Virus record (IMG/VR): IMGVR_UViG_3300034358_000013
Location: 1-41,641 of that record
Direction: 5' to 3' (one strand)
Source: a virus
Length of the DNA stretch: 41,641 bases
In this document: positions 238-34,576 of the stretch, piece after piece
Layout: the number at the start of each line of letters is the position of its first letter
Numbering within the stretch: the first letter of the stretch is position 1
Made by a program: the position numbers and the translations under genes
Notes under the pieces: model-generated
The model's input: only the letters and a program-made list of their open reading frames with translations
What the model was told of the DNA's origin: nothing
Database searches by the model: none

Positions 238-304
238 TGTCGAAACCCCCTCGCGAGGGGGTCTGCAACGATTGGTCCCGTTGCACTGATGATGACAGAC
301 CAAT
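238..304 (+). ncRNA. Type II hammerhead ribozyme, copy 1, with pseudoknot
   Basis: Order and spacing match a type II (stem II open) hammerhead. Stem II is UGUC 238-241 with GACA 294-297. Conserved GAAA is 242-245. Stem III pairs 246-250 with 257-261 around TCGCGA, closed by A245-U262. Predicted cleavage is after C263 (GUC). Stem I pairs 264-270 with 279-285 (7 bp). The CUGAUGA core is 286-292, with one extra U (293) before stem II. The stem I loop (271-277, ATTGGTC) is fully complementary to GACCAAT at 298-304, forming a 7-bp pseudoknot. The GAGAGAG ribosome-binding tract of the next gene follows immediately. Core motifs are identical in all five copies while the stems vary compensatorily. 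Confidence 0.9.
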
Positions 305-319
305 GAGAGAGAAAACGAC

Positions 320-775
320 ATGACGAAAGCACCACGCGAAGGTTCCCGCAAAGCACAGGTCTATGACGTGTTCTTCGATCGGGGGCTTGATGCAGCGATC
401 GCGTTCGCGCAAACGCTGGGCCTGAAAGAGGGCACAGTCAAATCATGGGCGGGGGGCTGGGCGAAGGGCACGAAGCAGGCGCACACCCCTGCGAAGGTCA
501 CGACTCCCAAGCTCGCAAAGACTCCCTTGAACGAACTACGCGGTCCCGACATGAACGGCCCTGCGGCCGTCGGCTACAAGGGTTGCGTATTGCGCGAACG
601 AATGATGGTGGTCGAGATCGGGGTCGGCAAAAAACGTCCTGGTCGGATCGTGCAATTGGGGGGCCAACAATCGGGCGTCAAGTGGGACGTCGATACGCTC
701 CCGGTTTTGTTCGTGAGCAATTCATACCTCGCTCCCCTCGACACGACGACGAAGAAGGAGCGGGTGAGGCTATGA
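320..775 (+). CDS. Hypothetical protein with N-terminal helix-turn-helix-like segment
   Basis: 151 residues. ATG at 320 follows a GAGAGAG purine tract placed just after the pseudoknot strand of hammerhead copy 1. Residues about 10-45 (KAQVYDVFFDRGLDAA ... LGLKEGTVKSWAGGW) look like a small helix-turn-helix, suggesting DNA binding. The middle is rich in Thr, Pro and Lys. The second half (PAAVGYKGCVLRERMMVVEI...) could be a small beta-barrel. The C-terminus is the basic string KKERVRL, similar to two other early or mid proteins here. It overlaps the next gene by 4 bases (ATGA). Function unknown; a DNA-binding role is inference. Confidence 0.75.
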   Translation: MTKAPREGSRKAQVYDVFFDRGLDAAIAFAQTLGLKEGTVKSWAGGWAKGTKQAHTPAKVTTPKLAKTPLNELRGPDMNGPAAVGYKGCVLRERMMVVEIGVGKKRPGRIVQLGGQQSGVKWDVDTLPVLFVSNSYLAPLDTTTKKERVRL

Positions 776-1194
776 CAGGGAGGTTTGATCATATGAAAGC
801 GCGAGTCCGATTGGACGAGGAGTTGAACGCGGTCGAGCGTGCCGATAATTTTTCGAGCGCGGACGGCCTGATCAAATACGAAGAATGGGAAGAGCGTGTG
901 TTCCTCGCGTCGATCAAGTACAGTGTCAACATCCCCCTCGGGCGGGGCAAGGTCGACACGAAATGGTACCGAACGTATCCCGAGGCGATGTTGATCGCGA
1001 TGCACACTCCTCGCGGCATCCTGTATGCGACGACGCAATCAGGGCGCTCAGTGTGCATCACGCGCAAGGACTACGAGAAATACCTGGGGGTCTACAACAA
1101 GGCCACGGGTCAAAATTTGCAAATGCCGCGCGACCCCTTGAAGCAAGAGGCCGTGCGGACTCACAAGCGCAGTCGGGTTCGGGTGCGGTTGTGA
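772..1194 (+). CDS. Hypothetical protein, about 140 aa
   Basis: I chose ATG 772 because it overlaps the upstream stop as ATGA and is preceded by AAGGAG. An equally good alternative is ATG 793, which has GGGAGG 12 bases upstream and gives MKARVRLDEELNAVERA. The protein is mixed alpha/beta and charged, with a GILYATTQSGRSVCITRKDYEKYLG segment (split here: residues near 87-110) that looks like a compact domain. It ends in the basic tail RSRVRVRL. I do not recognise a family. It is translationally coupled to the preceding gene, and hammerhead copy 2 starts two bases past its stop. Confidence 0.72.
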   Translation: MTGRFDHMKARVRLDEELNAVERADNFSSADGLIKYEEWEERVFLASIKYSVNIPLGRGKVDTKWYRTYPEAMLIAMHTPRGILYATTQSGRSVCITRKDYEKYLGVYNKATGQNLQMPRDPLKQEAVRTHKRSRVRVRL

Positions 1195-1196
1195 CG

Positions 1197-1271
1197 TGTC
1201 GAAACTCCCGCGCGCAAATGCGCGGGGGTCTGCAACGATTGGTCCCGTTGCACTGATGATGACAGACCAAT
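1197..1271 (+). ncRNA. Type II hammerhead ribozyme, copy 2, with pseudoknot
   Basis: Stem II 1197-1200 with 1261-1264. GAAA 1201-1204. Stem III 1205-1213 with 1220-1228 is 9 bp with one G-U pair, and its sequence is quite different from copy 1. Cleavage is predicted after C1230. Stem I 1231-1237 with 1246-1252. Core CUGAUGA 1253-1259 with extra U1260. Pseudoknot 1238-1244 with 1265-1271 (7 bp). The last base of the pseudoknot strand is within an in-frame ATG at 1270, which could mislead start calling; the real start of the next gene is 1285 after GAGGAGAGA. Confidence 0.9.
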
Positions 1272-1284
1272 GAGGAGAGAGAAA

Positions 1285-1635
1285 ATGAAAGCGACATTTG
1301 CATTACTGATCCGCAAGCTCGAAAGTAAAATTACCGCCGCGCGTGCCGAGCCGAACGACAAGGGGTTCTACCTTGTCAACGTCACCGGGGGTTGGGTCGT
1401 CGTGCGCGACCCCGTCGATGGCAAGTACCTGTTCGATCGCGCGGGCGCAGGGGTCGGTTATCGTTTCGAGAAACAACACGAAGCGATGCAAGCCGGCAAC
1501 ATGTGGAACGCATGCTTGCAGTCCGAACAGCTCGACGCTGATTGCGCTGTGATGTCATACGATCACAAGCACTACATGCAGAAGCATATCACGCATTGCG
1601 AGCGCAAGCTTGCAGTGCTCCGCATTGCAGCCTGA
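1285..1635 (+). CDS. Hypothetical protein, 116 aa
   Basis: ATG 1285 is chosen over the in-frame ATG at 1270 because 1270 lies inside the ribozyme pseudoknot strand and GAGGAGAGA sits at ideal distance before 1285. The N-terminus MKATFALLIRKLESKITAAR is a short amphipathic helix. A beta-rich region with VTGGWVVVRDPVDGKYLF follows, then a His/Tyr-rich stretch (SYDHKHYMQKHITHCERK). That stretch could bind metal, but no known zinc motif is complete. No family recognised. It heads a three-gene block that ends at hammerhead copy 3. Confidence 0.75.
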   Translation: MKATFALLIRKLESKITAARAEPNDKGFYLVNVTGGWVVVRDPVDGKYLFDRAGAGVGYRFEKQHEAMQAGNMWNACLQSEQLDADCAVMSYDHKHYMQKHITHCERKLAVLRIAA

Positions 1636-1647
1636 GGAGAAACGAAC

Positions 1648-1893
1648 ATGAGTAAAGGTCCTGGTCCCTACACGGTTCAATTCAACGAACCGCAACGTGA
1701 CATGATCGCCCAGCTATTCGCTCTGGTTGATGAGTCTCGCGTCGTCAAGATTTCTGACGGCGTGAACGACGCTGACGCGACATATCGAATGCTCAAGGAG
1801 GCGTTCGCAGCACTCCCTGACGACGACGCAGCGATCCACAAGCGCTACGGCGAGGAGCACGCGCTCAACTGCATTCACGGGTTCGCGATATGA
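1648..1893 (+). CDS. Hypothetical protein, 81 aa
   Basis: A small acidic, mainly helical protein. ATG 1648 lies 12 bases after the upstream stop with TGAGGAGAAACGAAC before it, a clear ribosome-binding site. Residues about 5-40 (PYTVQFNEPQRDMIAQLFA...) look like a helix-forming segment and the remainder is acidic. No motif identifies a function. It overlaps the next gene by 4 bases at 1890-1893, so the two are probably translationally coupled. Confidence 0.72.
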   Translation: MSKGPGPYTVQFNEPQRDMIAQLFALVDESRVVKISDGVNDADATYRMLKEAFAALPDDDAAIHKRYGEEHALNCIHGFAI

Positions 1894-2252
1894 TTGAGTT
1901 CAAAGCGAAGAACGCAATATGCAAGGGCTACACGATCACGGTGCCGGGCAATAAGGGCGAGGAAGAACTCGTGATCATTTGCTCCCCCGGCCAGGACATG
2001 AAGTGGCGCGTCGTGATCGTCGCGGCGTCGGTTGATGGGGGCATGCAGATGCTCTACAACACGACCGCATTTAAGAGGGGCAGCGATCTCCCTGATCAAC
2101 AGACTGTGCTCTCAAAGATCCACACCATCGTGTTGACGTGGGCGCGAGGGGGAATACAGCCGACGGAAAAACAGAATGCGAGAGTCTATAGTGAGGTCAG
2201 TAAGCTCATGAAGCGCATTTACAAGTTTTATTGTTGGCACTGCGAAGCGTGA
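1890..2252 (+). CDS. Hypothetical protein, 120 aa
   Basis: ATG 1890 overlaps the previous stop (ATGA). The N-terminal half alternates short hydrophobic beta strands (ELVIIC, WRVVIVAASVDGG), as in a small beta-sandwich or barrel. The C-terminal third is basic and helical (KLMKRIYKFYCWHCEA) and ends with a C-x2-H-C cluster. I do not recognise a family. Hammerhead copy 3 begins directly after its stop codon at 2252. Confidence 0.72.
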   Translation: MIEFKAKNAICKGYTITVPGNKGEEELVIICSPGQDMKWRVVIVAASVDGGMQMLYNTTAFKRGSDLPDQQTVLSKIHTIVLTWARGGIQPTEKQNARVYSEVSKLMKRIYKFYCWHCEA

Positions 2253-2323
2253 TGTCGAAACCCCCGCACGATCGCGGGGGTCTGCGGGTAATGGTCCCCC
2301 CGCACTGATGATGACAGACCAAT
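2253..2323 (+). ncRNA. Type II hammerhead ribozyme, copy 3, with pseudoknot
   Basis: Stem II 2253-2256 with 2313-2316. GAAA 2257-2260. Stem III 2261-2267 with 2274-2280. Cleavage predicted after C2282. Stem I is UGCGGG 2283-2288 with CCCGCA 2299-2304, replacing UGCAACG/CGUUGCA of copies 1-2 by compensatory changes while keeping the 22-base hairpin length. Core 2305-2311 with extra U2312. Pseudoknot TGGTC 2292-2296 with GACCA 2317-2321. The DUF932 gene starts 15 bases after the element with GAGAGAG between. Confidence 0.9.
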
Positions 2324-2337
2324 GAGAGAGAACGAAG

Positions 2338-3297
2338 ATGGCACACAAGGTGGAGACGATGGCATACGCGAACGAAGTTCCGTGGCACGGTCTCGGCAAC
2401 AATGTTGCGGCTGATATGACTCCGGAACAAATGATGGTTGCGTCAGGGACCGACTGGACGGTCTCGAAGCGTCAGGTTCACTTCCCCGACACAGCGGGCA
2501 AGCTGATCCAGGCGAAGGGCGAGTTCGTGATTGCGCGCGACACGGACGACAAGGTCCTGACGACGGTCGGTTCAACATACACGCCGATGCAGAACAAGGA
2601 CATGTTTGACTTCTTCAAAAAGTTCACCGAGGCCGGTGGCATGACGATGGAGACGGCCGGTTCGTTGGCCGAGGGCAAATACGTCTGGGCCCTTGCGCGC
2701 ATCGGCAAGGACTTCAAGATCGGCACGGGCAAGGGGGCCGACGAGATCAGACCCTATCTCCTGATCATGTCGCCTCACGTTCACGGCAAGGCCCTGATCA
2801 TGCAGTATACGCCCATTCGCGTAGTCTGTTGGAACACGTTGTCGATGGCGCTTGGGTCTGATCTCAAGGGCAACAAGCACGGGTTCAAAATGGCGCACTC
2901 CCGCAAATGGGAAGTCGTCAAGGAAGAGGCCGAGGCGGTGCTCGGCTTGTCGATTAAACAGACCGACGAGTTCAAGGGGGCCGCAACGCTCCTCGCGAAG
3001 GCGAAGGCGAGCAAGGACCAGACTGAGGAGTTCTTCCTCAAGGTCCTGCAAATGAAACCTGACGCGAAGAAGACTCCGATCGCGTTGCCGAAGTTTCGCG
3101 CGGCTCTCGAGCATGCTCCGGGGTCGATGCTGACGACGGCGAAGGGCACCTGGTGGGGTGCGTTGAACGCAGTCACCTATGTCGTCGACCATGAACTGGG
3201 CAAGGACAAGGAGACGTCATTGCGAGGAGCGTGGATCGGCAATCACTCGAAGACGAAACGTCGCGCGCTCGAGCTCGCGATGGACTACGCGAAGTAA
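2338..3297 (+). CDS. DUF932 family phage/plasmid-like protein (TIGR03299-like)
   Basis: 319 residues, the usual length for this family. The N-terminus HKVETMAYANEVPWHGLG is diagnostic of the phage/plasmid-like TIGR03299/DUF932 family (Met...PWHGLG). The internal segment TPIRVVCWNTLSMAL and the C-terminal RRALELAMDYA also fit. Members occur widely in phages and plasmids near early or replication genes and their biochemical role is unknown. ATG 2338 is preceded by GAGAGAGAACGAAG right after hammerhead copy 3. The gene is followed by a terminator-like GC hairpin at 3318-3339 and two small genes before hammerhead copy 4. Confidence 0.88.
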   Translation: MAHKVETMAYANEVPWHGLGNNVAADMTPEQMMVASGTDWTVSKRQVHFPDTAGKLIQAKGEFVIARDTDDKVLTTVGSTYTPMQNKDMFDFFKKFTEAGGMTMETAGSLAEGKYVWALARIGKDFKIGTGKGADEIRPYLLIMSPHVHGKALIMQYTPIRVVCWNTLSMALGSDLKGNKHGFKMAHSRKWEVVKEEAEAVLGLSIKQTDEFKGAATLLAKAKASKDQTEEFFLKVLQMKPDAKKTPIALPKFRAALEHAPGSMLTTAKGTWWGALNAVTYVVDHELGKDKETSLRGAWIGNHSKTKRRALELAMDYAK

Positions 3298-3317
3298 TCA
3301 CTGACGACGCATTGCAG

Positions 3318-3339
3318 GGGGCCGCGATCGTGCGGCCCC
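3318..3339 (+). terminator. GC-rich hairpin after DUF932 gene (terminator-like, family 1)
   Basis: GGGGCCGC 3318-3325 pairs perfectly with GCGGCCCC 3332-3339 around a 6-base loop, followed by only two T residues. It lies 20 bases after the DUF932 stop and before the next small gene. Two near-copies of this hairpin occur at 21217-21241 and 37412-37432, also between genes. The weak T-tract makes it an attenuator or mRNA-stabilising stem as plausibly as a full intrinsic terminator. Confidence 0.5.
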
Positions 3340-3363
3340 TTCAACCTGTCGGAGCGAGACAGC

Positions 3364-3519
3364 ATGTCAGACTACGAACGGATCGAACTCGAACTCGCAA
3401 TCATCATGACCCAGCTCATGAAACGCGCGGTTCAGAAAGTGCGAGAACAACAGCTGGGCGAAGCGTTCAAGGACCTACCGACCAGCCCCCCATTAGCACC
3501 AACAGGAGATGAGAAATGA
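3364..3519 (+). CDS. Small hypothetical protein, 51 aa
   Basis: ATG 3364 has GGAG eight bases upstream. The protein begins MSDYERIELELAII and is a single predicted amphipathic helix over residues 1-35, followed by a Pro-rich tail (PTSPPLAPTGDEK). Its stop TGA at 3517-3519 overlaps the ATG of the secreted protein at 3516 (ATGA), which supports real translation. No family recognised. Confidence 0.6.
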   Translation: MSDYERIELELAIIMTQLMKRAVQKVREQQLGEAFKDLPTSPPLAPTGDEK

Positions 3520-3830
3520 AGCAAGCACTCGTGGTCGCGGTCGTACTGATCGCGACGGCAGCCCAAGCCGAGGTCGTAACGACGACGACCAAATGCGCGC
3601 GCAATTACTACACCGGTCTTGAATGTCGCACGACGACGTTGACCGGCACCGATGCGCCGAACTCCCCTCGACACAAGACCCGCGCGGAGATCGAACAGGA
3701 CGCGCGCGACGCGGCCGAACGTGCGGCCAAGTGGGAGTCGTTTTGCAAGCCGACTCCTGTCGTCGGCGACGATGGACTGACGCGCATCAAATACGCGCAC
3801 AAGAACTGCGACATCGGACGCGCCGAATGA
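3516..3830 (+). CDS. Small secreted protein with Sec signal peptide
   Basis: 104 residues. The N-terminus (Met-Lys, then a hydrophobic run VVAVVLIATA and AQA before Glu20) is a classical signal peptide with a signal peptidase I site after AQA. The mature part is about 85 residues with four Cys that could form two disulfides in the periplasm (KCARNYYTGLEC and later FCKPT, KNCDIG). The middle is a charged helix (RAEIEQDARDAAERAAK). A periplasmic location suggests a role in superinfection exclusion or host-envelope interference, but this is inference. GGAGATGAGAA precedes ATG 3516. Hammerhead copy 4 follows immediately after the stop. Confidence 0.78.
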   Translation: MKQALVVAVVLIATAAQAEVVTTTTKCARNYYTGLECRTTTLTGTDAPNSPRHKTRAEIEQDARDAAERAAKWESFCKPTPVVGDDGLTRIKYAHKNCDIGRAE

Positions 3831-3831
3831 A

Positions 3832-3899
3832 GTCGAAACTCCCGCTCGCATGCGGGGGTCTGCGGAGCATGAGCAACCCGCACTGATGATGACAGCTCA
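3832..3899 (+). ncRNA. Type II hammerhead ribozyme, copy 4, with altered pseudoknot pair
   Basis: Stem II is shorter, GUC 3832-3834 with GAC 3891-3893. GAAA 3835-3838. Stem III 3839-3845 with 3852-3858. Cleavage predicted after C3860. Stem I 3861-3865 with 3878-3882. Core 3883-3889 with extra U3890. The pseudoknot has changed on both sides to TGAGC 3870-3874 with GCTCA 3895-3899, instead of TGGTC/GACCA in copies 1-3. This double change is strong covariation evidence that the loop really pairs with the region beside the ribosome-binding site. Confidence 0.88.
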
Positions 3900-3920
3900 C
3901 TTTGAGAGAGAGAGAAGCAA

Positions 3921-4319
3921 ATGGCAAAACCGTTGATGATGACGATCCAGGTCGAGGAGATTGCATTCGGAAAAGTCTTCCGAACTCTCGACACAATGCC
4001 GGGCGTCATCGCGATCAACCTGCACGGGTCTGGTCCCAAGGAGCAGACCACGTCGTCGCCCCCGCGTCGAACCGGCGGTGCGACCGTGGAGTGCCTGATC
4101 CTCGGAGCACTCCGCGAAACGAAAGTCCCCTTGACCCGCACAACGCTAACCGAAGTGATTGTACAGGGGGGCAAGGCCGCGTCCTCGTTCCAGGACGCGA
4201 TCAGCAAGCTGGTCAAAAAGAAACACGTCACAAAGGGAGTTGACGGCAACTACAAGATCACGGCCGCCGGCTCGAAGCGATACGAGTCGGCGTGCGAGCT
4301 CGAAGCGGAGGCTGCGTAA
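3921..4319 (+). CDS. Hypothetical protein with winged-helix-like C-terminus
   Basis: 132 residues. ATG 3921 follows a GAGAGAGAGAGAAG tract. Residues about 55-125 (TVECLILGALRETKVPLTRTTL ... AISKLVKKKHVTKG, then GNYKITAAGSKRYES) have the helix, helix, recognition-helix and beta-wing rhythm of a winged helix with the usual 'G.Y.lT..G...' wing. This suggests a small DNA-binding regulator. The stop at 4319 directly abuts the ATG of the next, also HTH-containing, gene at 4320. The two may act together as regulators; that is inference. Confidence 0.75.
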   Translation: MAKPLMMTIQVEEIAFGKVFRTLDTMPGVIAINLHGSGPKEQTTSSPPRRTGGATVECLILGALRETKVPLTRTTLTEVIVQGGKAASSFQDAISKLVKKKHVTKGVDGNYKITAAGSKRYESACELEAEAA

Positions 4320-4655
4320 ATGGCAAAGAAAACAACACGCATCGGCGTGTATCGAACGTACCGGTTCATCGACAAGGACCCGGTGATCGACAAGATCCGC
4401 ACGGTGCTGCAGGACGAGGGCTTCGATAAGAAGCGTCACGTCGTCAGCCGCATGTCAGGGGTGTCCCCCTCGACATTGGCGAACTGGTTCGAGGGAGCGA
4501 CGAAGCGCCCTCAACACGCGACGCTCGCGGCCGTCATCACGGCGGTCGGCTACGAGTTCACATTCAGCAAGACCCGTGAGATCGACGAGCAGGAAGAGCT
4601 CGACAAGGCGAAGGCGTTTCGCAAGCGTCAATTGGAGGCACTGAAAAAGAAATGA
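4320..4655 (+). CDS. HTH (Cro/CI-like) DNA-binding protein
   Basis: 111 residues. Residues about 35-80 (KKRHVVSRMSGVSPSTLANWF ... TLAAVITAVGYEFTF) form a lambda-repressor-like helix-turn-helix. The SGVSPSTLANWFEG recognition region and the AVITAVGYEF closing helix are typical of XRE-family proteins. The C-terminal tail is a charged coiled-coil-like helix (EQEELDKAKAFRKRQLEALKKK). It probably binds DNA as a repressor or activator in the early region; targets are unknown. The start abuts the preceding stop and its end overlaps the next gene (ATGA at 4652). Confidence 0.8.
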   Translation: MAKKTTRIGVYRTYRFIDKDPVIDKIRTVLQDEGFDKKRHVVSRMSGVSPSTLANWFEGATKRPQHATLAAVITAVGYEFTFSKTREIDEQEELDKAKAFRKRQLEALKKK

Positions 4656-4837
4656 AACCTGATCCCCTGAAAGTCGGCGACAAGGTGCGTTCGAAGAACG
4701 CATTGCCGCACACCAAGCCTGGCGTGATTGAGGAGCTGCGAGTTCGCGGTATGTCTGATTGCGCACTCGTTCGGTACCCCGGTTCGCATGATGCAATCAC
4801 TGTCATTCGTGCGCACCTGATCAAAGTTGACGAGTAA
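4652..4837 (+). CDS. Small protein with SH3/KOW-like barrel, 61 aa
   Basis: ATG 4652 overlaps the HTH gene stop (ATGA). The sequence PLKVGDKVRSKNALPHTKPGVIEELRV resembles the first strands of small SH3-like barrels (KVGDKV ... GVIEEL ... CALVRYPG ... HLIKVDE), a pattern seen in many phage proteins of 60-70 residues with no known role. No catalytic motif is present. Hammerhead copy 5 begins within the last bases of the stop codon region. Confidence 0.72.
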   Translation: MKPDPLKVGDKVRSKNALPHTKPGVIEELRVRGMSDCALVRYPGSHDAITVIRAHLIKVDE

Positions 4838-4901
4838 GTCGAAACCCCCTCGCGAGGGGGTCTGTCACGATTGAGCCCGTAGCACTGATGATGACAGCTC
4901 A
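4838..4901 (+). ncRNA. Type II hammerhead ribozyme, copy 5, with pseudoknot
   Basis: Stem II GUC 4838-4840 with GAC 4893-4895. GAAA 4841-4844. Stem III 4845-4849 with 4856-4860 (same as copy 1). Cleavage predicted after C4862. Stem I 4863-4869 with 4878-4884 contains a C4866-A4881 mismatch and a U-G pair, so it may be the weakest copy. Core 4885-4891 with extra U4892. Pseudoknot TGAGC 4872-4876 with GCTCA 4897-4901. An in-frame ATG at 4888 lies inside the core; the real downstream start is 4921. Confidence 0.85.
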
Positions 4902-4920
4902 CGTTTCTGGAGAGAGACAA

Positions 4921-5178
4921 ATGACGTTACTATCCCACAAGAACATGATCGCGCACGCCCTGTTGACTGATCAAGGGGCCGCGGTTCATGCCTACAACCC
5001 CGCCGATCACGACGACGGCGACCCGGAGAACGGTCCCGGGTGCTGGGGGTTCCCCGCGTTCGACGTGTACAGCACCGACTCGCATGACATCGTGGTCAAT
5101 CACAATGGACTAATCGACGGCATGAGCCTGATCGATTGGGACGAGTTTCGATACCTCGAGAAGGAGGGCATGCTGTGA
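4921..5178 (+). CDS. Hypothetical protein, 85 aa
   Basis: ATG 4921 is chosen because GGAGAGAGACAA lies just before it; the longer frame from 4888 would start inside the ribozyme core. The protein is acidic with many Asp/Gly and aromatic residues (HDDGDPENGPGCWGFPAFDVY). That suggests a compact beta-rich domain, perhaps metal-binding. No family recognised. Its stop overlaps the next gene's GTG (GTGA at 5175). Confidence 0.7.
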   Translation: MTLLSHKNMIAHALLTDQGAAVHAYNPADHDDGDPENGPGCWGFPAFDVYSTDSHDIVVNHNGLIDGMSLIDWDEFRYLEKEGML

Positions 5179-5714
5179 AGAAGCGAGTGACAGTGACCCT
5201 GACGTTCGAACTCGACACGATGAAGTACCCACTCCGGCAATGGTTCCTGATATTCAATCAGCACATGGTCGACGTGCTGCGACATATCAACACGAACCCC
5301 AAGCTGGGAACGCTGATCGGGGCGACGAGTCAATTCGACGCCCTGAACCCACAACGTCTCGACCATCGCGCGGCCGGTCCTGCGAAGGCGGACCTGCCCA
5401 AGGTGTTCACGTTCTGCGCGTTGTGCCCAAACACGTCATGGTGCCGCACGCAAGGCCAATGCGTTCGCGCGGAGAAGGTGCGAGCGACGGGTTCGATCGA
5501 ACACCTGACGCGGGAGACGGTCAACACGCGACCGATAACCCCGATCGACGAACCGACGCTCAACAAGATCATCCGCGAGCTCAACGAAGAAGAGCTTGCA
5601 CGTCGACCCATCAAGAAGAACCCGGGACGCGCTGCCCCGGGCACAACGAACGTCAAACCCAAGGTCCCGTTTGCAGGGTCCGAAAAGCCGCGTAGCAGGA
5701 GTAAGCGCAAATGA
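5175..5714 (+). CDS. Hypothetical protein with Cys4 zinc-finger-like cluster
   Basis: 179 residues from GTG 5175, which overlaps the upstream stop (GTGA) and has AAGGAGG seven bases before it. Residues about 85-105 contain FCALCPNTSWC followed by QCVRAEK, giving a C-x2-C-x6-C-x5-C arrangement that could hold zinc. The N-terminus KKRVTVTLTFELDTMKYPL is beta-strand-like. The C-terminal 45 residues are basic and disordered (KKNPGRAAPG ... KPRSRSKRK), fitting nucleic-acid binding. Function unknown. Confidence 0.7.
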   Translation: MKKRVTVTLTFELDTMKYPLRQWFLIFNQHMVDVLRHINTNPKLGTLIGATSQFDALNPQRLDHRAAGPAKADLPKVFTFCALCPNTSWCRTQGQCVRAEKVRATGSIEHLTRETVNTRPITPIDEPTLNKIIRELNEEELARRPIKKNPGRAAPGTTNVKPKVPFAGSEKPRSRSKRK

Positions 5715-6484
5715 GCACCGCAGCACTTGATAAGGTAATCGATCGCATCCGCAAACTCCTCGCCCTCGCAACGTCGGCGAACGAGAACGAGGCCGCAGCG
5801 GCCGCGTTGAAGGCGCAAGCACTCCTCGCAGAATACAATCTCGACATGTCTGCCATCCGCGAGGAGCAGACCGAGGCATTCGTGATCGACGAAGAACTGC
5901 ACACCGACTCCCGTCCGTGGCGTCGCACGTTGGCCGCGAACGTCGCGCGGCTGTACTTCGCGGAGTACTTCTATGGCTACGTCAAGCAGCCCACGCTTGA
6001 GCGGGCCTGCGGGTACATCAGGTTCGATCGACACAACTTCGTCGGGTCCCCGCACAACGTGCTGGTCGCGAAATCGATCTTCATGTACCTATGCGACACG
6101 ATCGAGCGGCTTGCGGTCGTTGGTTCAATGACACACCCAGTGTCGGGTCGTACCTCTTATCGGACGTCGTTTCGTCATGCATGCGCGAACCGCTTGTCGG
6201 AGCGGCTTGCAGAACGATACGGTGCGGTCACGAATACGCTCCTACACAATGACGGGCGCAATCTCCCTGCGCTCTACGAGTCGACGCGCGAGGCCGTGCA
6301 AGCGTTCATGAACGAGCGGGTGGGGGATGTTCGCGCTGTCGTCAAATCGCGAGGGCGCATCCATTCGTTGGAAGGCGCGATCGACGGCAACAAGGCCGGT
6401 GATGCGATCGGTCTTGACGTTCAAGTGGAACAGGGGACCAGCACTCACATGCTGTCCCATCACACTGGCAAGCCCGCAGTATGA
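5711..6484 (+). CDS. DUF2786 domain protein
   Basis: 257 residues. The N-terminal 45 residues (KVIDRIRKLLALATSANENEAAAAALKAQ, shown in parts: KVIDRIRKLLALA, then NENEAAAAALKAQALL, then YNLD) are a textbook DUF2786 domain, found in phage and bacterial proteins of unknown function. The central region resembles the second conserved domain that usually accompanies DUF2786, with aromatic-rich strands and a helix SFRHACANRLSERLAERY. ATG 5711 overlaps the previous stop. The last codons coincide with a repeated promoter-like 12-mer (6476-6487), so the next gene may have its own promoter. Confidence 0.85.
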   Translation: MSTAALDKVIDRIRKLLALATSANENEAAAAALKAQALLAEYNLDMSAIREEQTEAFVIDEELHTDSRPWRRTLAANVARLYFAEYFYGYVKQPTLERACGYIRFDRHNFVGSPHNVLVAKSIFMYLCDTIERLAVVGSMTHPVSGRTSYRTSFRHACANRLSERLAERYGAVTNTLLHNDGRNLPALYESTREAVQAFMNERVGDVRAVVKSRGRIHSLEGAIDGNKAGDAIGLDVQVEQGTSTHMLSHHTGKPAV

Positions 6485-11841: not shown

Positions 11842-11932
11842 GGGAGGGCAGGAGCGGTTTTTGGGGGGGCCCCCCGCACAGGTCCCCCCGATTGCCCCCA
11901 AAACGTCCCCAGCAGCCCCCTGTCACACAAAA
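11836..11932 (+). repeat. Duplicated intergenic element, copy A (upstream of folE)
   Basis: Two blocks are identical to copy B (27843-27938): 24 bases at 11836-11859 and 33 bases at 11900-11932. The interior (40 bases here, 39 in copy B) is unrelated in sequence but contains a GC hairpin in both. The first block can form CCGCT/AGCGG (11835-11839 with 11853-11857). Its G-rich loop is complementary to TCCCC (11906-11910) and to CCTG (11919-11922) of the second block, so a pseudoknotted RNA is possible. It starts at the queC stop codon and ends just before ATG 11945. No known riboswitch or ribozyme class recognised. Confidence 0.6.
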
Positions 11933-11944
11933 AGGACCCCCCGA

Positions 11945-12589
11945 ATGCCCCCCCGAACCCCCCCAATCGACACGGACCCCCTGATCGACGACGAGATCCC
12001 GAAACCAGCCCCCTCAACGTACCCGGGGGTCATCACCCGATTGTTGCAATTCCTCGAACCGAAGCCCGATCGCGAGGGGTTGCGCGAAACGCCTGCGCGC
12101 GTCGTCAAGGCGTGGGCGCATTGGACATCGGGCTACGATGTCGATACCGACGCGCTCCTGAAATGTTTCTCCGACGGCGCGGAGAAATACGATGAGATGG
12201 TTTTCGTCGGGTCGATCCCGTTCTATTCGCATTGCGAGCACCACCTCGCTCCGTTCTTCGGGGTCGCGCATGTCGGCTATATCCCCGGCGACTGCGGCAT
12301 CGTCGGCCTGTCAAAGATCCCGCGACTTGTCGATGCGTTCGCACGTCGGCTGTCCGTGCAAGAGCGTATCACGACGCAGGTCGCCGACACGATGGAGCGC
12401 GTACTCAAACCGAAAGGGGTCGGGGTGCTCCTGCAAGCGCGTCATATGTGCGTCGAGTCGCGAGGGGTTTCGAAGCCCGGCACGATCACGACGACAAGCG
12501 CGCTCAGGGGCATCCTCAAGGAACATGCGGACGCGCGATCGGAGTTCCTCAAGCTCGTCCAGTTGCAGAGGGGGGCGGGTCTTGGTTAG
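11945..12589 (+). CDS. folE: GTP cyclohydrolase I (FolE)
   Basis: First step of the preQ0 pathway: GTP to dihydroneopterin triphosphate. 214 residues from ATG 11945. Zinc and active-site residues are in SHCEHHLAPF (Cys and two His) and HMCVESRG (second Cys). IVGLSKIPRLV, SVQERIT and TTTTSALRG-like TITTTSALRG are also conserved. It lacks nothing obvious. An alternative TTG start at 11861 has a well-spaced AGGAG, but would add a Pro-rich leader through the duplicated element; ATG 11945 has only a weak AAAGGA. It overlaps dpdA by 8 bases. The phage copy would raise the pterin flux needed for 7-deazaguanine synthesis. Confidence 0.93.
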   Translation: MPPRTPPIDTDPLIDDEIPKPAPSTYPGVITRLLQFLEPKPDREGLRETPARVVKAWAHWTSGYDVDTDALLKCFSDGAEKYDEMVFVGSIPFYSHCEHHLAPFFGVAHVGYIPGDCGIVGLSKIPRLVDAFARRLSVQERITTQVADTMERVLKPKGVGVLLQARHMCVESRGVSKPGTITTTSALRGILKEHADARSEFLKLVQLQRGAGLG

Positions 12590-24087: not shown

Positions 24088-24293
24088 CGATTGGCAAAGC
24101 CCTGTTCCCCGATCGCATGCCCGCGTCGTTTATCGTCGAGTGCGAGAACTGTTGGCCGGTTGGTTGTTTGAAGCCCGAGTCGTGCGAACGCAACGAGCAG
24201 TGTATGTATGAGCCCTGCCCGTTCGAAGGCCGCAAGCTCACGAAGATTCTAGACCTGTTAGCTGAGAAGCGCAAAAGGAGAGTACGCAAATGA
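24084..24293 (+). CDS. Small Cys-rich protein, 69 aa
   Basis: ATG 24084 overlaps the nuclease stop (ATGA). Six Cys occur between residues 20 and 45 (VECENCWPVGCLKPESCE then NEQCMYEPCPF), a density that suggests a zinc knuckle or other metal site. The C-terminal helix is strongly basic (KILDLLAEKRKRRVRK). Possibly an RNA- or DNA-binding accessory of the repair genes on either side. No family recognised. Confidence 0.68.
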   Translation: MTIGKALFPDRMPASFIVECENCWPVGCLKPESCERNEQCMYEPCPFEGRKLTKILDLLAEKRKRRVRK

Positions 24294-24976
24294 GCACCAA
24301 AGGGATCCCGCAGTTCTTCGGTATATCGGGAGTGCCGGCCGCACGTCGCACGATCAAGGAGTGTATCATCGTCGATATCGACGGCACGCTCGCGAACAAC
24401 AAGCACCGTCAGTTCTATCTCGAGGGCGACAAAAAGAACTGGAACGGGTTCTTCAAGGCCGCAGCCCATGACCGGCTGTTCCGTGAGATCCGACTGATCG
24501 TCAATTTGTTCTTCACGTCAACGTCGCACGCGATCTTCCTTTGCACGGGTCGGCCCTCGCAATATCACGAACTGACGATGCAGTGGCTACGCGAGCAGGA
24601 CGTGCAATACACGTCGCTTGTGATGCGAGCGCAGGGGGATGGTCGGCCCGATCCCGTGATCAAGAAGGAGATGCTCGAGGAGATCAAGATGCAGGGGTAC
24701 AAGCCCGTGCTCGCGATCGACGATCGTCCCGAGGTCGTGCTCATGTGGCGCGAGAACGGAGTGCCGTGTTTGCAGGCAGACCCATCGGACTGGGAGAAGC
24801 AGCCACAGCGCCAATGGTTGCGCTCCGTGACCGACGACATCCACCAGCTACGGCGCATGTATGACGACTCTAAAGCCGACCGCGTGCTCGACGACCTCAC
24901 GATCGCGGTTAACAACATGCACCGCATCATCATGAACCAGGCTGACGAACTCGAGCGCCTGCGGGATCGCGTCTGA
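24290..24976 (+). CDS. HAD-family 3'-phosphatase (T4 Pnkp phosphatase domain-like)
   Basis: 228 residues. VDIDGTLANN (Asp29, Asp31) is the catalytic DxD. CTGRPSQY is HAD motif II, and RAQGDGRPDPVIKKE followed by AIDDRPEVVLMWRENGVPC (split) reproduces the T4 polynucleotide kinase 3'-phosphatase (REQGDTRKDDVVKEE and AIDDR..VVEMWR). The kinase domain is absent. T4 Pnkp's phosphatase domain removes 3'-phosphates and 2',3'-cyclic phosphates. These are the ends made by nucleases and by hammerhead cleavage, so it may heal either. ATG 24290 overlaps the upstream stop, and its last base is shared with the next start at 24976. The C-terminal helix (ADELERLRDRV) is an addition. Confidence 0.85.
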   Translation: MSTKGIPQFFGISGVPAARRTIKECIIVDIDGTLANNKHRQFYLEGDKKNWNGFFKAAAHDRLFREIRLIVNLFFTSTSHAIFLCTGRPSQYHELTMQWLREQDVQYTSLVMRAQGDGRPDPVIKKEMLEEIKMQGYKPVLAIDDRPEVVLMWRENGVPCLQADPSDWEKQPQRQWLRSVTDDIHQLRRMYDDSKADRVLDDLTIAVNNMHRIIMNQADELERLRDRV

Positions 24977-27848: not shown

Positions 27849-27938
27849 GGGAGGGCAGGAGCGGTTCGGGCCCCTGATCAGGGGCAAGGGCACGTCATGA
27901 CGCGCAAAACGTCCCCAGCAGCCCCCTGTCACACAAAA
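27843..27938 (+). repeat. Duplicated intergenic element, copy B (upstream of NusG-like gene)
   Basis: Identical to copy A over 27843-27866 and 27906-27938, with a different interior that includes the perfect hairpin GCCCCTGATCAGGGGC (27870-27885). As in copy A it begins at the upstream gene's TAG. The first block can form CGCT/AGCG (27843-27846 with 27860-27863). Here the likely ATG of the NusG-like gene (27897) lies within the element, so the 33-base block is translated as KTSPAAPCHTKR. Confidence 0.6.
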
Positions 27939-28484
27939 CGGCCCCGTCCGAGGGACCCCAAGGCCCCCAAATCGAGGGGGGCGCCCCGCGTTCGCGTCGT
28001 GCTCGATCAATGGGTGCTCGTTCGCACGCAATCGGGACGCGAGAACTGGGCGCGCGTCAATGTCGAGAACCAAGGAGCGCGAACGTTCCTGCCCAAAGTG
28101 GAAGTGGGAACTAAGGGGTCCCTTGAAGTCCTGTTCCCCGGGTACCTGTTTGTCGAGGTCTCGACATGGGGGCACGCCTTCCTACGAGGGACATTTGGCG
28201 TGATCGGGTTTGTGCCGTCGAATGAACGCATCGAGCGCGTGCCGCGTCGCGTCATGGATCATTTGTTCGCGATCGTGAATGAAGAAGGGTATGTGCCCCT
28301 CCCAACGCAAAGACCCCTCCACAAGAAAGAACTGGTCATCGTCGATCGTGGGTCTTTCAAAAATTTCCTGGGTGTGTATATAGGGGACACCGGCGACAAG
28401 CGAAACGAGGTGCTCCTGCACTTCATGGGACGCGAAGTCAAGGCGACGTTCGAGCGACACGAATTGCGCCCCGTCAAGGATTAG
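27897..28484 (+). CDS. NusG/RfaH-like transcription elongation factor
   Basis: 195 residues from ATG 27897, which has AAGGG seven bases upstream; a GTG about 90 bases later would remove a Pro/Lys/Arg-rich leader. Residues about 40-130 are the NGN domain (WVLVRTQSGRENWARVN, FLPKVEV, LFPGYLFVEV, FGVIGFVPSN), which in NusG binds the polymerase clamp helices. Residues about 145-195 are a KOW domain (LVIVDRGSFKNFLGVYIGD ... LHFMGREVKATFERHEL). The protein probably modifies host RNA polymerase, as an antiterminator or competitor of NusG. A large hairpin (28485-28533) directly follows the stop and precedes the late-side genes. Confidence 0.88.
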   Translation: MTRKTSPAAPCHTKRPRPRDPKAPKSRGAPRVRVVLDQWVLVRTQSGRENWARVNVENQGARTFLPKVEVGTKGSLEVLFPGYLFVEVSTWGHAFLRGTFGVIGFVPSNERIERVPRRVMDHLFAIVNEEGYVPLPTQRPLHKKELVIVDRGSFKNFLGVYIGDTGDKRNEVLLHFMGREVKATFERHELRPVKD

Positions 28485-30493: not shown

Positions 30494-31042
30494 ATGGGCT
30501 TCGCATGGGACGACGACGCGATTGCATTCGCACGCAGACACTGGGAAGACCCGCAGGGCTTGCGCGCATCAGAGATCGCAAAGGAGCTTGGGTGCTCTCG
30601 CAATGCGGTCATCGGCAAAATGCATCGCAAGGGGTTCGAGTGTGGGAGGGGTGATGGCTTGCCACGTTCACGCAAGGCAAAGACTGTGAAGGCCAAGACT
30701 CCTCGCAAGACGAGCTCGAGCACGCAGAAGAACTCCTCGCGGCTTGGGTCGTGGCGCACGTCGTCAAAGGGCGAGCGCACACCGCCCAAGGTCATCCCCA
30801 TTGTCGAGGACAGACCCGCAACGTCAGTGCCGTTGTTCGGTACTGACGAACGCGACTGCAAGTGGCCCACGAGTGCCGACGTGTTGTCAATGGAGGTGTG
30901 CGGTCAGGCGTCAACGATCGGCGCCTACTGCGACAAGCATGCGATGCTCGCATATCGTCAGATGCCCTCGCAGTCTCGCGTCGGTTCGTTCCGTGCGGAC
31001 AATGTGGAGCACACTAAGCGCTTGTGCGGGCCCCTGTCATGA
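30494..31042 (+). CDS. GcrA-like cell-cycle regulator homologue
   Basis: 182 residues. The N-terminal domain (FAWDDDAIAFARRHWED ... LRASEIAKELGCSRNAVIGK followed by MHRKG) is the GcrA helix-turn-helix, almost the family consensus (SAsqIA.eLGg.TRNAVIGK.HRLGL). The C-terminus RDCKWPTSADV ... VCGQAS ... YCDKHAMLAYRQ matches the GcrA C-terminal CRWP...FCG...YC..H..iAYqP. The middle is a basic disordered linker. GcrA acts with sigma-70 at promoters with CcrM-methylated GAnTC sites and is restricted to Alphaproteobacteria and their phages. This is the best host clue in the window. It sits between terminase genes and overlaps terL. Confidence 0.9.
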   Translation: MGFAWDDDAIAFARRHWEDPQGLRASEIAKELGCSRNAVIGKMHRKGFECGRGDGLPRSRKAKTVKAKTPRKTSSSTQKNSSRLGSWRTSSKGERTPPKVIPIVEDRPATSVPLFGTDERDCKWPTSADVLSMEVCGQASTIGAYCDKHAMLAYRQMPSQSRVGSFRADNVEHTKRLCGPLS

Positions 31043-32526
31043 ACTACGTCCCACAGCAGCCGTGGAACGAGCAGGACTTCGAACTGCTCGAGGAGTACTA
31101 CGCGGCCGAGTCACGCGAGTCGCTGTGGGCGTTCCGTCAATACATGGACCCAACGTTCCAGCGTGGCTGGTGGGTTCATGAGGTCTCGGAGCAGCTGCAG
31201 AAGTTCTTCGTGCGGCTTGAGAACAACGAACGACCCACACTGCTGCTCGAGGCACCCCCTCAGCACGGCAAGTCTAGGGGCCTGATTGACTTCGTCGCGT
31301 GGGCCTCGGGCAAGCGGCCAAGCCTGCGCACGATCTATGCGAGCTACTCTGACGACCTGGGTGTCGCGGCCAACATGTTTCTGCAGCGCATGTTCGACGA
31401 TCGCACGAAGTACGGTCGCGTGTTCCCAGCGACTGCGATCAACGAGACGAACGTCGTCACGATGACGGGTCGCTACCTGCGCAACTCCTCGTTCCTGGAG
31501 TTTGTCGGGCAGAAGGGCTCGTTCCGAAACGTCACGGTGCGCGGACAGGTCACGGGCAAGGGCCTTGACCTCGGCATCGTCGATGACCCGATCAAGGGAC
31601 GTGCGGAAGCACAGTCGCCCACGATACGCAACAGCACGTGGGCGTGGCTGATGGACGACTTCTTCAATCGGTTCTCGGAGTTCGCGGGTCTGATTATCAC
31701 GATGACACGATGGCACGTTGACGATCCTGCGGGTCGCTTCCTCGAGCGCTTCCCAGACGCTGTCGTGCTCAAGTACCCGGCGCTCGCGTTGGGCAAGCCG
31801 ATCAAGGGCAACAGCGCGAACGACCCGCGCGTCAAGGGCGAGCCGCTGTTCCCGGAGTTCAAGTCCAAGACGTTCTTGATGGAGCGCAAGCGCGCCTACA
31901 CCGAAGCGTCGTGGCAGTCGTTGTATCAGCAGTCGCCGATCGTGTCGGGCGGTGGGCTGTTCCCGATCGTCAAGCTTCACTACATGCCGCACCCCCCTGC
32001 GGCCGACGACATCAAGAAGACCGTGCGCTATTGGGACAAGGCCGGCACGCAGGACGGTGGTGCCTACACGGCGGGTGTGCTCATGCACGAACTCAACGAT
32101 GGGCGCTGGGTCATCGAGGACGTGCGACGTGGGCAGCTCAACGCATGGGACCGCGAGAAGCTGATCAAGGCGACGGCCGAAGCCGACGACGCGAAGTTCG
32201 CGCGCGTTGAGATCTGGGTCGAGCGTGAACCGGGCTCGGGCGGCAAGGAGTCTGCGGAGCGCACGATCGCAATGCTCAAGGGTCATATCGTCAAGGAAGA
32301 CCGCGTGACGGGCGACAAGGAGACGCGGGCCGAGCCCTACGCTGCACAATGGCAGGGGGGCAACATCCTGCTAGTCGCGGCGTCGTGGAACGCGAACTTC
32401 GTTGATGAGCACGAGTCGTTCCCCTCGGGCACCTACAAGGATCAAGTCGACGCGGCGGCGGGTGCGTTCGCGAAGCTTGTGAGCAAGACTTACAAATACG
32501 ATGCCACGATGTCGTGGGTCAAGTGA
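31039..32526 (+). CDS. terL: Terminase large subunit
   Basis: 495 residues from ATG 31039, overlapping the previous stop (ATGA). The ATPase part has LLLEAPPQHGKSR (71-80, Walker A variant), TIYASYSDDLG, the Walker B LGIVDDPIKGRAEA and the coupling motif LIITMTRWHVDD. The nuclease domain follows with RYWDKAGTQDGGAYTAGVLM (first Asp), VEIWVEREPGSGG and a late KDQVDAAAGAF (last Asp). This matches the psiM2/TIGR01630-like class. It cuts and pumps genome DNA into proheads through the portal encoded next. Confidence 0.95.
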   Translation: MNYVPQQPWNEQDFELLEEYYAAESRESLWAFRQYMDPTFQRGWWVHEVSEQLQKFFVRLENNERPTLLLEAPPQHGKSRGLIDFVAWASGKRPSLRTIYASYSDDLGVAANMFLQRMFDDRTKYGRVFPATAINETNVVTMTGRYLRNSSFLEFVGQKGSFRNVTVRGQVTGKGLDLGIVDDPIKGRAEAQSPTIRNSTWAWLMDDFFNRFSEFAGLIITMTRWHVDDPAGRFLERFPDAVVLKYPALALGKPIKGNSANDPRVKGEPLFPEFKSKTFLMERKRAYTEASWQSLYQQSPIVSGGGLFPIVKLHYMPHPPAADDIKKTVRYWDKAGTQDGGAYTAGVLMHELNDGRWVIEDVRRGQLNAWDREKLIKATAEADDAKFARVEIWVEREPGSGGKESAERTIAMLKGHIVKEDRVTGDKETRAEPYAAQWQGGNILLVAASWNANFVDEHESFPSGTYKDQVDAAAGAFAKLVSKTYKYDATMSWVK

Positions 32527-32539
32527 CAGGGGTTTGATG

Positions 32540-34576
32540 ATGGCTGCTACAAGGAAGAAGGCGCGCGTCGCGGACTCCGTGCCCAACGTGGGCAACGTGC
32601 GGCCCCTCGGTGTGACGGCCGACACGCTCATGAACTTCATGACCGGCATGGGCACGGAGAAGGACAAGGGCACCGCGACCATGTTCGGCTTCGCGGAGAT
32701 GCCGCGTGAGCAACTCGAGGCCGCGTATCGAGGCGACTGGATCAGTCGCAAGATCGTTGACATCCCGGCTTATGACGCGACACGCGAGTGGCGCTCATGG
32801 GAGGTCGACAAGAACGACGGCACCAAGATCTACGATGTCGAAATGGCACTGGGCATTCAGCGCAAGGCCATGCTCGCGATGCAGCGCGCACGGCTCTACG
32901 GTGGGGCGGCACTCGTCATCGGTGTTGATCAGGGCAAGGCCGAAGAACCGCTCGACGTGGAGCGCATCAAGCAGGGGTCGTTGAAGTTCGTGCATGTCGT
33001 CAATCGGCATGAGCTGACTGCGGGCCAGACCGAGTGGGACGTTAACAGCCCGTACTTCGGCGAGCCCCAGTACTACACGCGATCGCTGCAGTCGTCGGGA
33101 TCGTTGCGGCTACACCCCTCGCGTGTCGTGCGCTTCATGGGCCTCGAACCCCCTGACCTCAGCCTCAACCAGGGCTGGGGTGACAGCGTGCTGCAGTCTG
33201 TCGCGGACGCTGTGATGTCGGCGGGCACTGTGACGAACGCGATTGCGGCACTCGTCAATGAAGCGAAGATCGACATCGTGAAGATCCCAGAGCTGTCGGA
33301 GCGCATCAGCAACAAGGCGTATGAGGACCGACTCAAGTCGAGGTTCGCAATGGCGAACATGATGAAGTCGCTTTATTCGCTGCTGCTGATCGACAAGGAA
33401 GAGGAGTGGTCGCGCGTTCAGCAGACGTTCGTCGGCATGCCCGAGATCCTGCAGATGTACCTGCTCCTCGCGTCGGGTGCGGCCGACATTCCGGCCACGC
33501 GCTTTCTGTCGCAGTCGCCTGCGGGCATGAACGCAACGGGCGAGTCTGATACGCGCAACTACTACGACCGCGTCTCCACGGAGCAAAACATCACAGTCAC
33601 GCCAGCGCTGTCGCGGCTTGACGACGTGCTCCTGATGTCAGCACTCGGCACGAAGCCCGACGGCATCTTCTACGAATGGAACCCGCTGTGGCAGTTGGAC
33701 GAAGTGCAGAAGGCCACGATCGCGGTTCAGAAGAGCCAGGTGCTGCAAGCCGACGTGACGGCGGGCCTGCTGAACTCCATGGTCCTGCAGAAGGCACGCG
33801 AGAACCAACTGATTGAGGACGGTACCTACCCGGGCCTCGAGCAGATCATTGAGGAGTTCGGTGACGACATCGACGAGCGCGAGGAAGAGGCAGGGCCGAC
33901 GGACCCACGGCTCGATCCCGAAGACCCCGCATATGACCCCGCGTTCGCGGCGTCGGAAGCAGCCCGCATTGCAGGCGAGACAGCAGACCCCGCCGCCGTG
34001 CCCGCTCCTGCGAACGAGAACGAGCCGCCGGTCGCGAAGAAAAAGAAGAAGGCCGCGTTCGGTGATGCACAGGCGATGGCCGACCGCATCAGGCTCGCCG
34101 ATGCGTCGCGGCCTCGCACGCTGTACATGCGTCGAGACGTGCTGAACCAAAAGGAGATCAAGGCGTGGGCCAAGTCGCAGGGGTTCGACACGACCCTTGA
34201 CGATATGCACGTCACGATCATCTACAGCAAGACTGCTGTTGACTGGCTCGCGATAGGCGACCAGTGGGGTGGGGGCGACGACAAGGGCAACCTACACGTC
34301 AAGCCAGGCGGGCCTCGCGTCATTGAAGTCTTCGGCAAGGCAGTCGTGCTGGCCTTCGCGAACACGGACCTGCAATGGCGCTGGCGCGATGCGATGGACA
34401 GGGGCGCGTCGTCGGACTACGAGGAGTACACACCGCACGTCACGCTGACCTACAACGTCGGCACCGTCGTGCTGGACAACGTCGTGCCCTATCGCGGGGC
34501 CATCGATTTGGGGCCGGAGATCTTCGAGGAGATCAAGACCGGCTTCAACAATGAGACCGACACCAAGGAGTCGTGA
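32540..34576 (+). CDS. DUF1073-type portal protein fused to a 2H-phosphoesterase (Acb1-like) domain
   Basis: 678 residues; ATG 32540 is chosen (AGGGG seven bases upstream), and ATG 32537 is adjacent. Residues about 20-450 are the DUF1073 portal (LMNFMTGMGTEKDKG, YRGDWISRKIVDIPAYDA, TRFLSQSPAGMNATGE). Residues about 450-535 are acidic, then a Lys/Ala linker. Residues about 535-665 are a compact domain with two H-x-T motifs, MHVTIIYS (His557, Thr559) and PHVTLTYN (His633, Thr635), the catalytic signature of 2H phosphoesterases such as the anti-CBASS nuclease Acb1. The combination is recognised in family naming (Acb1-like N-terminal domain). The domain may be cut off or act in the capsid; not shown here. 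Confidence 0.88.
   Translation: MAATRKKARVADSVPNVGNVRPLGVTADTLMNFMTGMGTEKDKGTATMFGFAEMPREQLEAAYRGDWISRKIVDIPAYDATREWRSWEVDKNDGTKIYDVEMALGIQRKAMLAMQRARLYGGAALVIGVDQGKAEEPLDVERIKQGSLKFVHVVNRHELTAGQTEWDVNSPYFGEPQYYTRSLQSSGSLRLHPSRVVRFMGLEPPDLSLNQGWGDSVLQSVADAVMSAGTVTNAIAALVNEAKIDIVKIPELSERISNKAYEDRLKSRFAMANMMKSLYSLLLIDKEEEWSRVQQTFVGMPEILQMYLLLASGAADIPATRFLSQSPAGMNATGESDTRNYYDRVSTEQNITVTPALSRLDDVLLMSALGTKPDGIFYEWNPLWQLDEVQKATIAVQKSQVLQADVTAGLLNSMVLQKARENQLIEDGTYPGLEQIIEEFGDDIDEREEEAGPTDPRLDPEDPAYDPAFAASEAARIAGETADPAAVPAPANENEPPVAKKKKKAAFGDAQAMADRIRLADASRPRTLYMRRDVLNQKEIKAWAKSQGFDTTLDDMHVTIIYSKTAVDWLAIGDQWGGGDDKGNLHVKPGGPRVIEVFGKAVVLAFANTDLQWRWRDAMDRGASSDYEEYTPHVTLTYNVGTVVLDNVVPYRGAIDLGPEIFEEIKTGFNNETDTKES

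Follow-up and report, generated by a model that had tools for sequence, protein, structure and literature searches.

Arrays of type II hammerhead ribozymes between the gene blocks of an uncultured phage and in R4-like Streptomyces phages

Five type II hammerheads at the borders of gene blocks

The stretch of DNA considered here, referred to as the window, is the 41,641-base virus record IMGVR_UViG_3300034358_000013 of the IMG/VR collection, which may be a fragment, and towards its left end it carries an array of five matches to type II hammerhead ribozymes, RNA elements predicted to cleave themselves between blocks of phage genes (Table 1). The 15 genes up to position 6484 form 14 junctions, five of which are gaps of 83-90 nucleotides (nt) with a ribozyme in every one, the other nine being six 4-nt overlaps and gaps of 0, 12 and 66 nt. 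The ribozymes are confined to these five gaps and absent from coupled junctions; they therefore sit only between blocks, within which most genes look translationally coupled. All five copies are on one strand and at block borders, beginning 0-3 nt past a stop codon and ending 14-20 nt ahead of the next ATG, which bears out an earlier note on this DNA that had placed each element between a stop codon and the following start. The 66-nt gap within the third block (3298-3363), the one large gap as far as 6484 that lacks a hammerhead, holds a plain GC hairpin, with neither a ribozyme nor a U-tract. The gene content suggests that the region is expressed early.

Type II hammerheads at five intergenic spots had been read from the letters in the earlier note, which proposed a search with the corresponding Rfam model. 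The Hammerhead_II model (RF02276; gathering score 37 bits) matches at all five places, four copies scoring above the gathering score and copy 4 missing it by 0.9 bit. Chance is excluded for the four copies by E-values of 7e-8 to 4e-6, and for copy 4 by an E-value of 8e-4 together with the core which is common to all copies. Neither a sixth hammerhead, at E-values up to 1, nor any other ribozyme was found in the 41,641-base record; since the contig starts within a gene, the array may extend beyond its left end.

The order of elements, predicted before from the sequence, is the same in each of the five copies, namely NGUC-GAAA, a stem III hairpin, GUC, a stem I hairpin, CUGAUGA, a U, GACA and a tail, with loops at the ends of stems I and III and an open stem II, as is characteristic of the type II order. 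The invariant core of CUGANGA, GAAA and an NUH cleavage site is complete throughout (CUGAUGA, GAAA and GUC, respectively), and the five cleavage positions named in the earlier note are correctly placed after GUC. Stem II consists of GUC/GAC, lengthened to UGUC/GACA in copies 1-3. While core, stem order, GUC site and a pseudoknot between loop I and the tail are shared with RF02276, the window copies differ by this stem II of 3-4 base pairs (bp) and by an additional U that separates CUGAUGA from GAC and is treated as an insertion in the Rfam alignment. The extra U was considered as a special feature and rejected, as forms with and without it both occur in related phages, the scans that built the collection having favoured one or the other form.

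The pseudoknot, formed with the tail that follows stem II, comprises 5-7 bp in every copy; it is present in most type II hammerheads, for which mutants have shown that it is needed for fast cleavage (Perreault et al., 2011; PMC3088659). Pairing is also supported by the comparison of copies. When copies of the window were aligned with those of two related contigs, 25 in all, pairing was seen in 92.3% of cells and 15 of the 23 pairs had changed on both sides, and the covariation score over stems and pseudoknot is 0.462, against 0.139 after shuffling and at most 0.137 after sliding. Among 282 distinct candidates from all collected loci, loop I pairs with its own tail over at least 4 bp in 68%, compared to 19% with swapped tails. 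By homology, the predicted cleavage of the window copies is well supported. Folded without constraints, copies 1-4 adopt the hammerhead as minimum-energy structure. Copy 4 has a shorter stem I and copy 5 a C-A mismatch in stem I, read directly from the sequence; these two copies look weaker, and equal activity of all copies is therefore not to be assumed; copy 5, followed by copy 4, is predicted to cut most slowly.

Table 1. Ribozyme copies and gene blocks at the left end of the window
Feature	Position	Strand	RF02276 score; E-value	Predicted cut	Pseudoknot (loop I/tail)	Remarks
Copy 1	238-304	+	51.6 bits; 6.7e-8	after C263	AUUGGUC/GACCAAU	stem III 245-262, stem I 264-285, core CUGAUGA 286-292, stem II UGUC/GACA
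Block 1	320-1194	+				genes 320-775 and 772-1194, ATGA overlap; no known family
Copy 2	1197-1271	+	45.0 bits; 3.6e-6	after C1230	AUUGGUC/GACCAAU	
Block 2	1285-2252	+				genes 1285-1635, 1648-1893 and 1890-2252; no known family
Copy 3	2253-2323	+	51.1 bits; 9.3e-8	after C2282	UGGUC/GACCA	upstream of DUF932 gene
Block 3	2338-3830	+				DUF932 protein 2338-3297 (PF06067, E 2.4e-43), small open reading frame 3364-3519, gene 3516-3830
Copy 4	3831-3901	+	36.1 bits; 7.6e-4	after C3860	UGAGC/GCUCA	pseudoknot found by reading the sequence
Block 4	3921-4837	+				genes 3921-4319 (weak DUF4364), 4320-4655 (weak helix-turn-helix) and 4652-4837
Copy 5	4837-4903	+	45.6 bits; 2.5e-6	after C4862	UGAGC/GCUCA	pseudoknot found by reading the sequence
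Block 5, first genes	4921-6484	+				genes 4921-5178, 5175-5714 and 5711-6484 (DUF2786), 4-nt overlaps

Longer arrays in uncultured contigs and in Streptomyces phages

A pattern scan of IMG/VR for close copies yielded 16 stretches. The whole record of contig G003 contains 11 model matches, or 12 counting one seen by pattern only, and that of contig G009 contains 10 type II hammerhead matches. Wider pattern scans, the results of which are biased by the patterns used, led, among the matches listed, to records with 15 hammerheads (G133), 10 (G053), 8 (G060), 6 (G101) and 7 each (G085, G100 and G134). Homologues of the window genes 320-775 (58%), 772-1194 (68%), 2338-3297 (the DUF932 gene; 69%) and 4921-5178 (55%) are encoded by G003, and a ribozyme stands directly ahead of the first, third and fourth of these in both the window and G003, as it does ahead of the DUF932 gene in G009. 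As nine genes are shared, the overlap by itself makes for weak statistics, and the positional argument is carried by the R4-like phages described below. DUF932 was rejected as a marker of such arrays, since 16 more distant contigs with a DUF932 gene have no RF02276 match, though many of these are fragments. Twister ribozymes occur near hammerheads in two contigs as mixed clusters; a twister-P1 match below its cut-off (L054, 3121-3173) and a twister-P5 ribozyme (L057, 14-74) each lie near type II hammerheads.

Streptomyces phage Diane, reached through a weak match, carries nine type II hammerheads, and its eight relatives then examined carry 8-13 each, among them phage R4 with nine, located within 41776-49461. 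The feature tables examined contain no hammerhead annotation, and no type I or III hammerhead scored above the cut-off in the array regions of the eight relatives. Six downstream gene families are preceded by a ribozyme in 9/9, 8/8, 9/9, 8/9, 8/8 and 6/6 of the phages having the gene, with protein identities of 33 to 96% and phages that span several genera. The similarity of ribozymes at matching positions is 0.773, compared to 0.679 within one phage and a background of 0.675. The higher similarity between matching positions indicates that the ribozyme positions are kept by descent and that the copies are not homogenised.

Several details of these phages touch on the arrays. In R4 and Marav, genes annotated as OCR-like antirestriction genes lie next to a ribozyme, which recalls the ardA genes downstream of hammerheads in Perreault et al. 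(2011; PMC3088659). In Thestral and Marav (L324 1027-1161 and L325 342-476, respectively) two hammerheads stand in tandem, 1-2 nt apart, so that double cutting would free a short RNA. A pair of ribozymes flanks a segment of 158-209 nt in eight R4-like phages (L318, reverse complement 2502-2709; equivalents in L319-L325). A noncoding RNA excised between this conserved pair was considered and rejected because the segment mostly holds a similar short open reading frame of about 30-40 codons (34 in Diane, where it is unannotated), and it is probably a small gene. Annotated genes gp72 of R4 (NC_019414.1 45302-45832; L319) and gp65 of Diane (NC_054663.1 43525-43941; L318) overlap predicted hammerheads at 45747-45812 and 43858-43927, respectively; the true starts of both genes probably lie further downstream than annotated. 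Phage Omar shows an Rfam small-subunit ribosomal RNA match at about 48633-48750 of NC_054662.1 (L320 550-667; 68.4 bits, model positions 106-311).

Clustered hammerheads have been described before in prophages, as a triple array in Agrobacterium tumefaciens and in Azorhizobium caulinodans and Clostridium scindens; cleavage into operon-length RNAs was shown for three of these prophage arrays in vitro and for one in Escherichia coli, and processing into operon-length messenger RNAs (mRNAs) has been proposed for such clusters (Perreault et al., 2011; PMC3088659). Those arrays have in common with the window that several hammerheads flank single genes or short blocks and that the same processing role is proposed. 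The window differs in that its five copies are all of type II and belong to an uncultured phage with a GcrA homologue, in that its relatives reach 15 copies, and in that the R4-like arrays are conserved by position. The five hammerheads in series stressed in the earlier note are not a new kind, since clusters, the proof that they cut both in vitro and in E. coli, and the processing proposal were all published in 2011 and longer arrays have now been found. The window is a further case of the known clustered phage hammerheads; of greater use are the conserved arrays in phages that can be cultivated. In the openly accessible literature that was searched, no report of arrays this long or in R4-like phages was found, although subscription papers or Rfam member lists may record them. 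A further likeness is found in the hammerhead variant of haloviruses HF1 and HF2 (HHphage), which lies shortly before a start codon of a polycistronic early region, with a mapped transcript 5' end at most 3 nt from its cut site; in contrast to the window array, it is a single copy of an archaeal virus with a variant core.

Processing of a polycistronic RNA and competing explanations

With a probability of roughly two in three, the array serves the co-transcriptional self-cleavage of a polycistronic RNA into uncoupled block mRNAs with protected ends and insulated leaders. Each element, held by stems I-III and the loop I-tail pseudoknot, would fold during transcription and cut after GUC in the polycistronic phage RNA, and the array would thereby place gene blocks that are not translationally coupled on mRNAs of their own. 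On the upstream RNA the cut would fall 25-36 nt beyond the stop codon and leave stem III as a hairpin at the 3' end, with -12 to -20 kcal/mol, and the downstream RNA would begin with a 5'-hydroxyl and with stem I at the very 5' end, with no unpaired leader and 54-60 nt to the start codon. By virtue of its topology, type II is the only one of the three classical orders in which both cut products carry a complete hairpin at the new end; protection of the ends would follow from this anatomy, and the type II order may have been selected for leaving two hairpins. Blocks would then decay at separate rates, each with a defined leader beside its ribosome-binding site, making the array a natural counterpart of engineered ribozyme insulators. 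In RiboJ insulators (Lou et al., 2012, as cited in PMC7190835) cleavage likewise leaves a defined, structured 5' leader before the ribosome-binding site, and according to a report cited in PMC7190835 the cleaved leader stabilises its mRNA. The anatomy of the window is compatible with insulation of this type, by analogy only, as RiboJ is an engineered single part placed after a promoter and not a natural intergenic array.

The earlier note had already read the five elements as a system that cuts one polycistronic RNA into gene blocks. This is the best-supported reading, although as a proposal it dates from 2011 and takes co-transcription as an assumption; beyond cleavage itself, we infer co-transcription, stabilisation and insulation. 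Several observations weigh against it. Scans for promoters and terminators gave results at chance level, so that a single early transcript has to be assumed. Cutting could destabilise the RNA instead of protecting it, and four of 18 consensus hammerheads tested in 2011 were not cleaved in vitro (Perreault et al., 2011; PMC3088659). Among the window copies, copy 4 stays below the RF02276 cut-off of 37 with its score of 36.1, and copy 5, folded without constraints, adopts an alternative minimum-energy structure which is not a hammerhead. The stem III hairpins were also considered as intrinsic terminators and rejected, as they have no U-tract and are missing from the terminator scan.

The ribozymes may alternatively be regulated switches, with translation gating the cut and with cut and uncut RNA expressed differently: stem II and the GAAA core would be hidden beneath a ribosome on the stop codon that borders the element, and the pseudoknot tail would be within reach of a ribosome on the following start codon. 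The close spacing to stop and start codons in all five window copies, similarly tight in the relatives, would suit such gating, and the idea that phages might regulate the cleavage was already put forward in 2011; yet this spacing may only reflect compact genomes, the distance from stop codon to ribozyme is looser in the R4-like phages (often 12-17 nt), and the window copies have short, constant loops and no ligand-like domain. We regard switching as unlikely, if still the strongest competitor of RNA processing.

That hammerheads readily emerge in selection experiments, as discussed in Perreault et al. (2011), and that the downstream genes differ between phage groups would be expected of neutral or selfish passengers, spread in phages and kept since cutting between blocks does no harm. 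Passengers would not be expected to stay ahead of the same genes across several genera, as in the nine R4-like phages, or to preserve pairing in diverged copies, and this explanation appears quite improbable. Least probable of all is that the copies are DNA linkers, border repeats that allow homologous recombination of gene blocks with self-cleavage as a secondary trait, since, despite the mosaic window copies (stem III of copy 1 is identical to that of copy 5, its stem I to that of copy 2) and a gene order that differs between the window and G003, copies within an R4-like phage resemble each other no more than the background and compensatory changes preserve pairing yet destroy DNA identity.

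A broader extension of the processing model, in which long type II arrays constitute a widespread, positionally conserved system of tailed phages, with an order selected for its two hairpins and with ribosome gating at stop and start codons, is tentative and on balance doubtful. The reason for hammerhead clusters in phages has been a question since 2011, and the conserved arrays in cultivable Streptomyces phages, with R4, a classical laboratory phage of Streptomyces coelicolor, among the carriers, make it testable. If the processing model is true, phages have long used natural ribozyme insulators, and promoters and terminators alone do not suffice for reading their mRNA maps.

Other features of the window

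Downstream of the array, the gene at 24290-24976 encodes a 3'-phosphatase domain of the PNKP type (PF25109), for which the 3' ends made by the ribozymes could be a substrate. As a fixed partner of the arrays this phosphatase was rejected, being present in the window and in contigs G003, G061 and G101 and absent from the four R4-like phages tested. A homologue of the cell-cycle regulator GcrA (30494-31042) suggests an alphaproteobacterial host. The portal protein (32501-34576) carries an Acb1 anti-CBASS domain in its C-terminal part (PF23474, E 1.3e-37, residues 539-683). Genes resembling PTPS/QueD, QueC and queuine transfer RNA-ribosyltransferase between 9680 and 13796 probably form a deazaguanine DNA-modification cluster. 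A 64-nt repeat is found near gene borders at 11899-11962 and 27905-27968, the two copies being 80% identical and both containing CAAAACGTCCCCAGCAGCCCCCTGTCACACAAAA.

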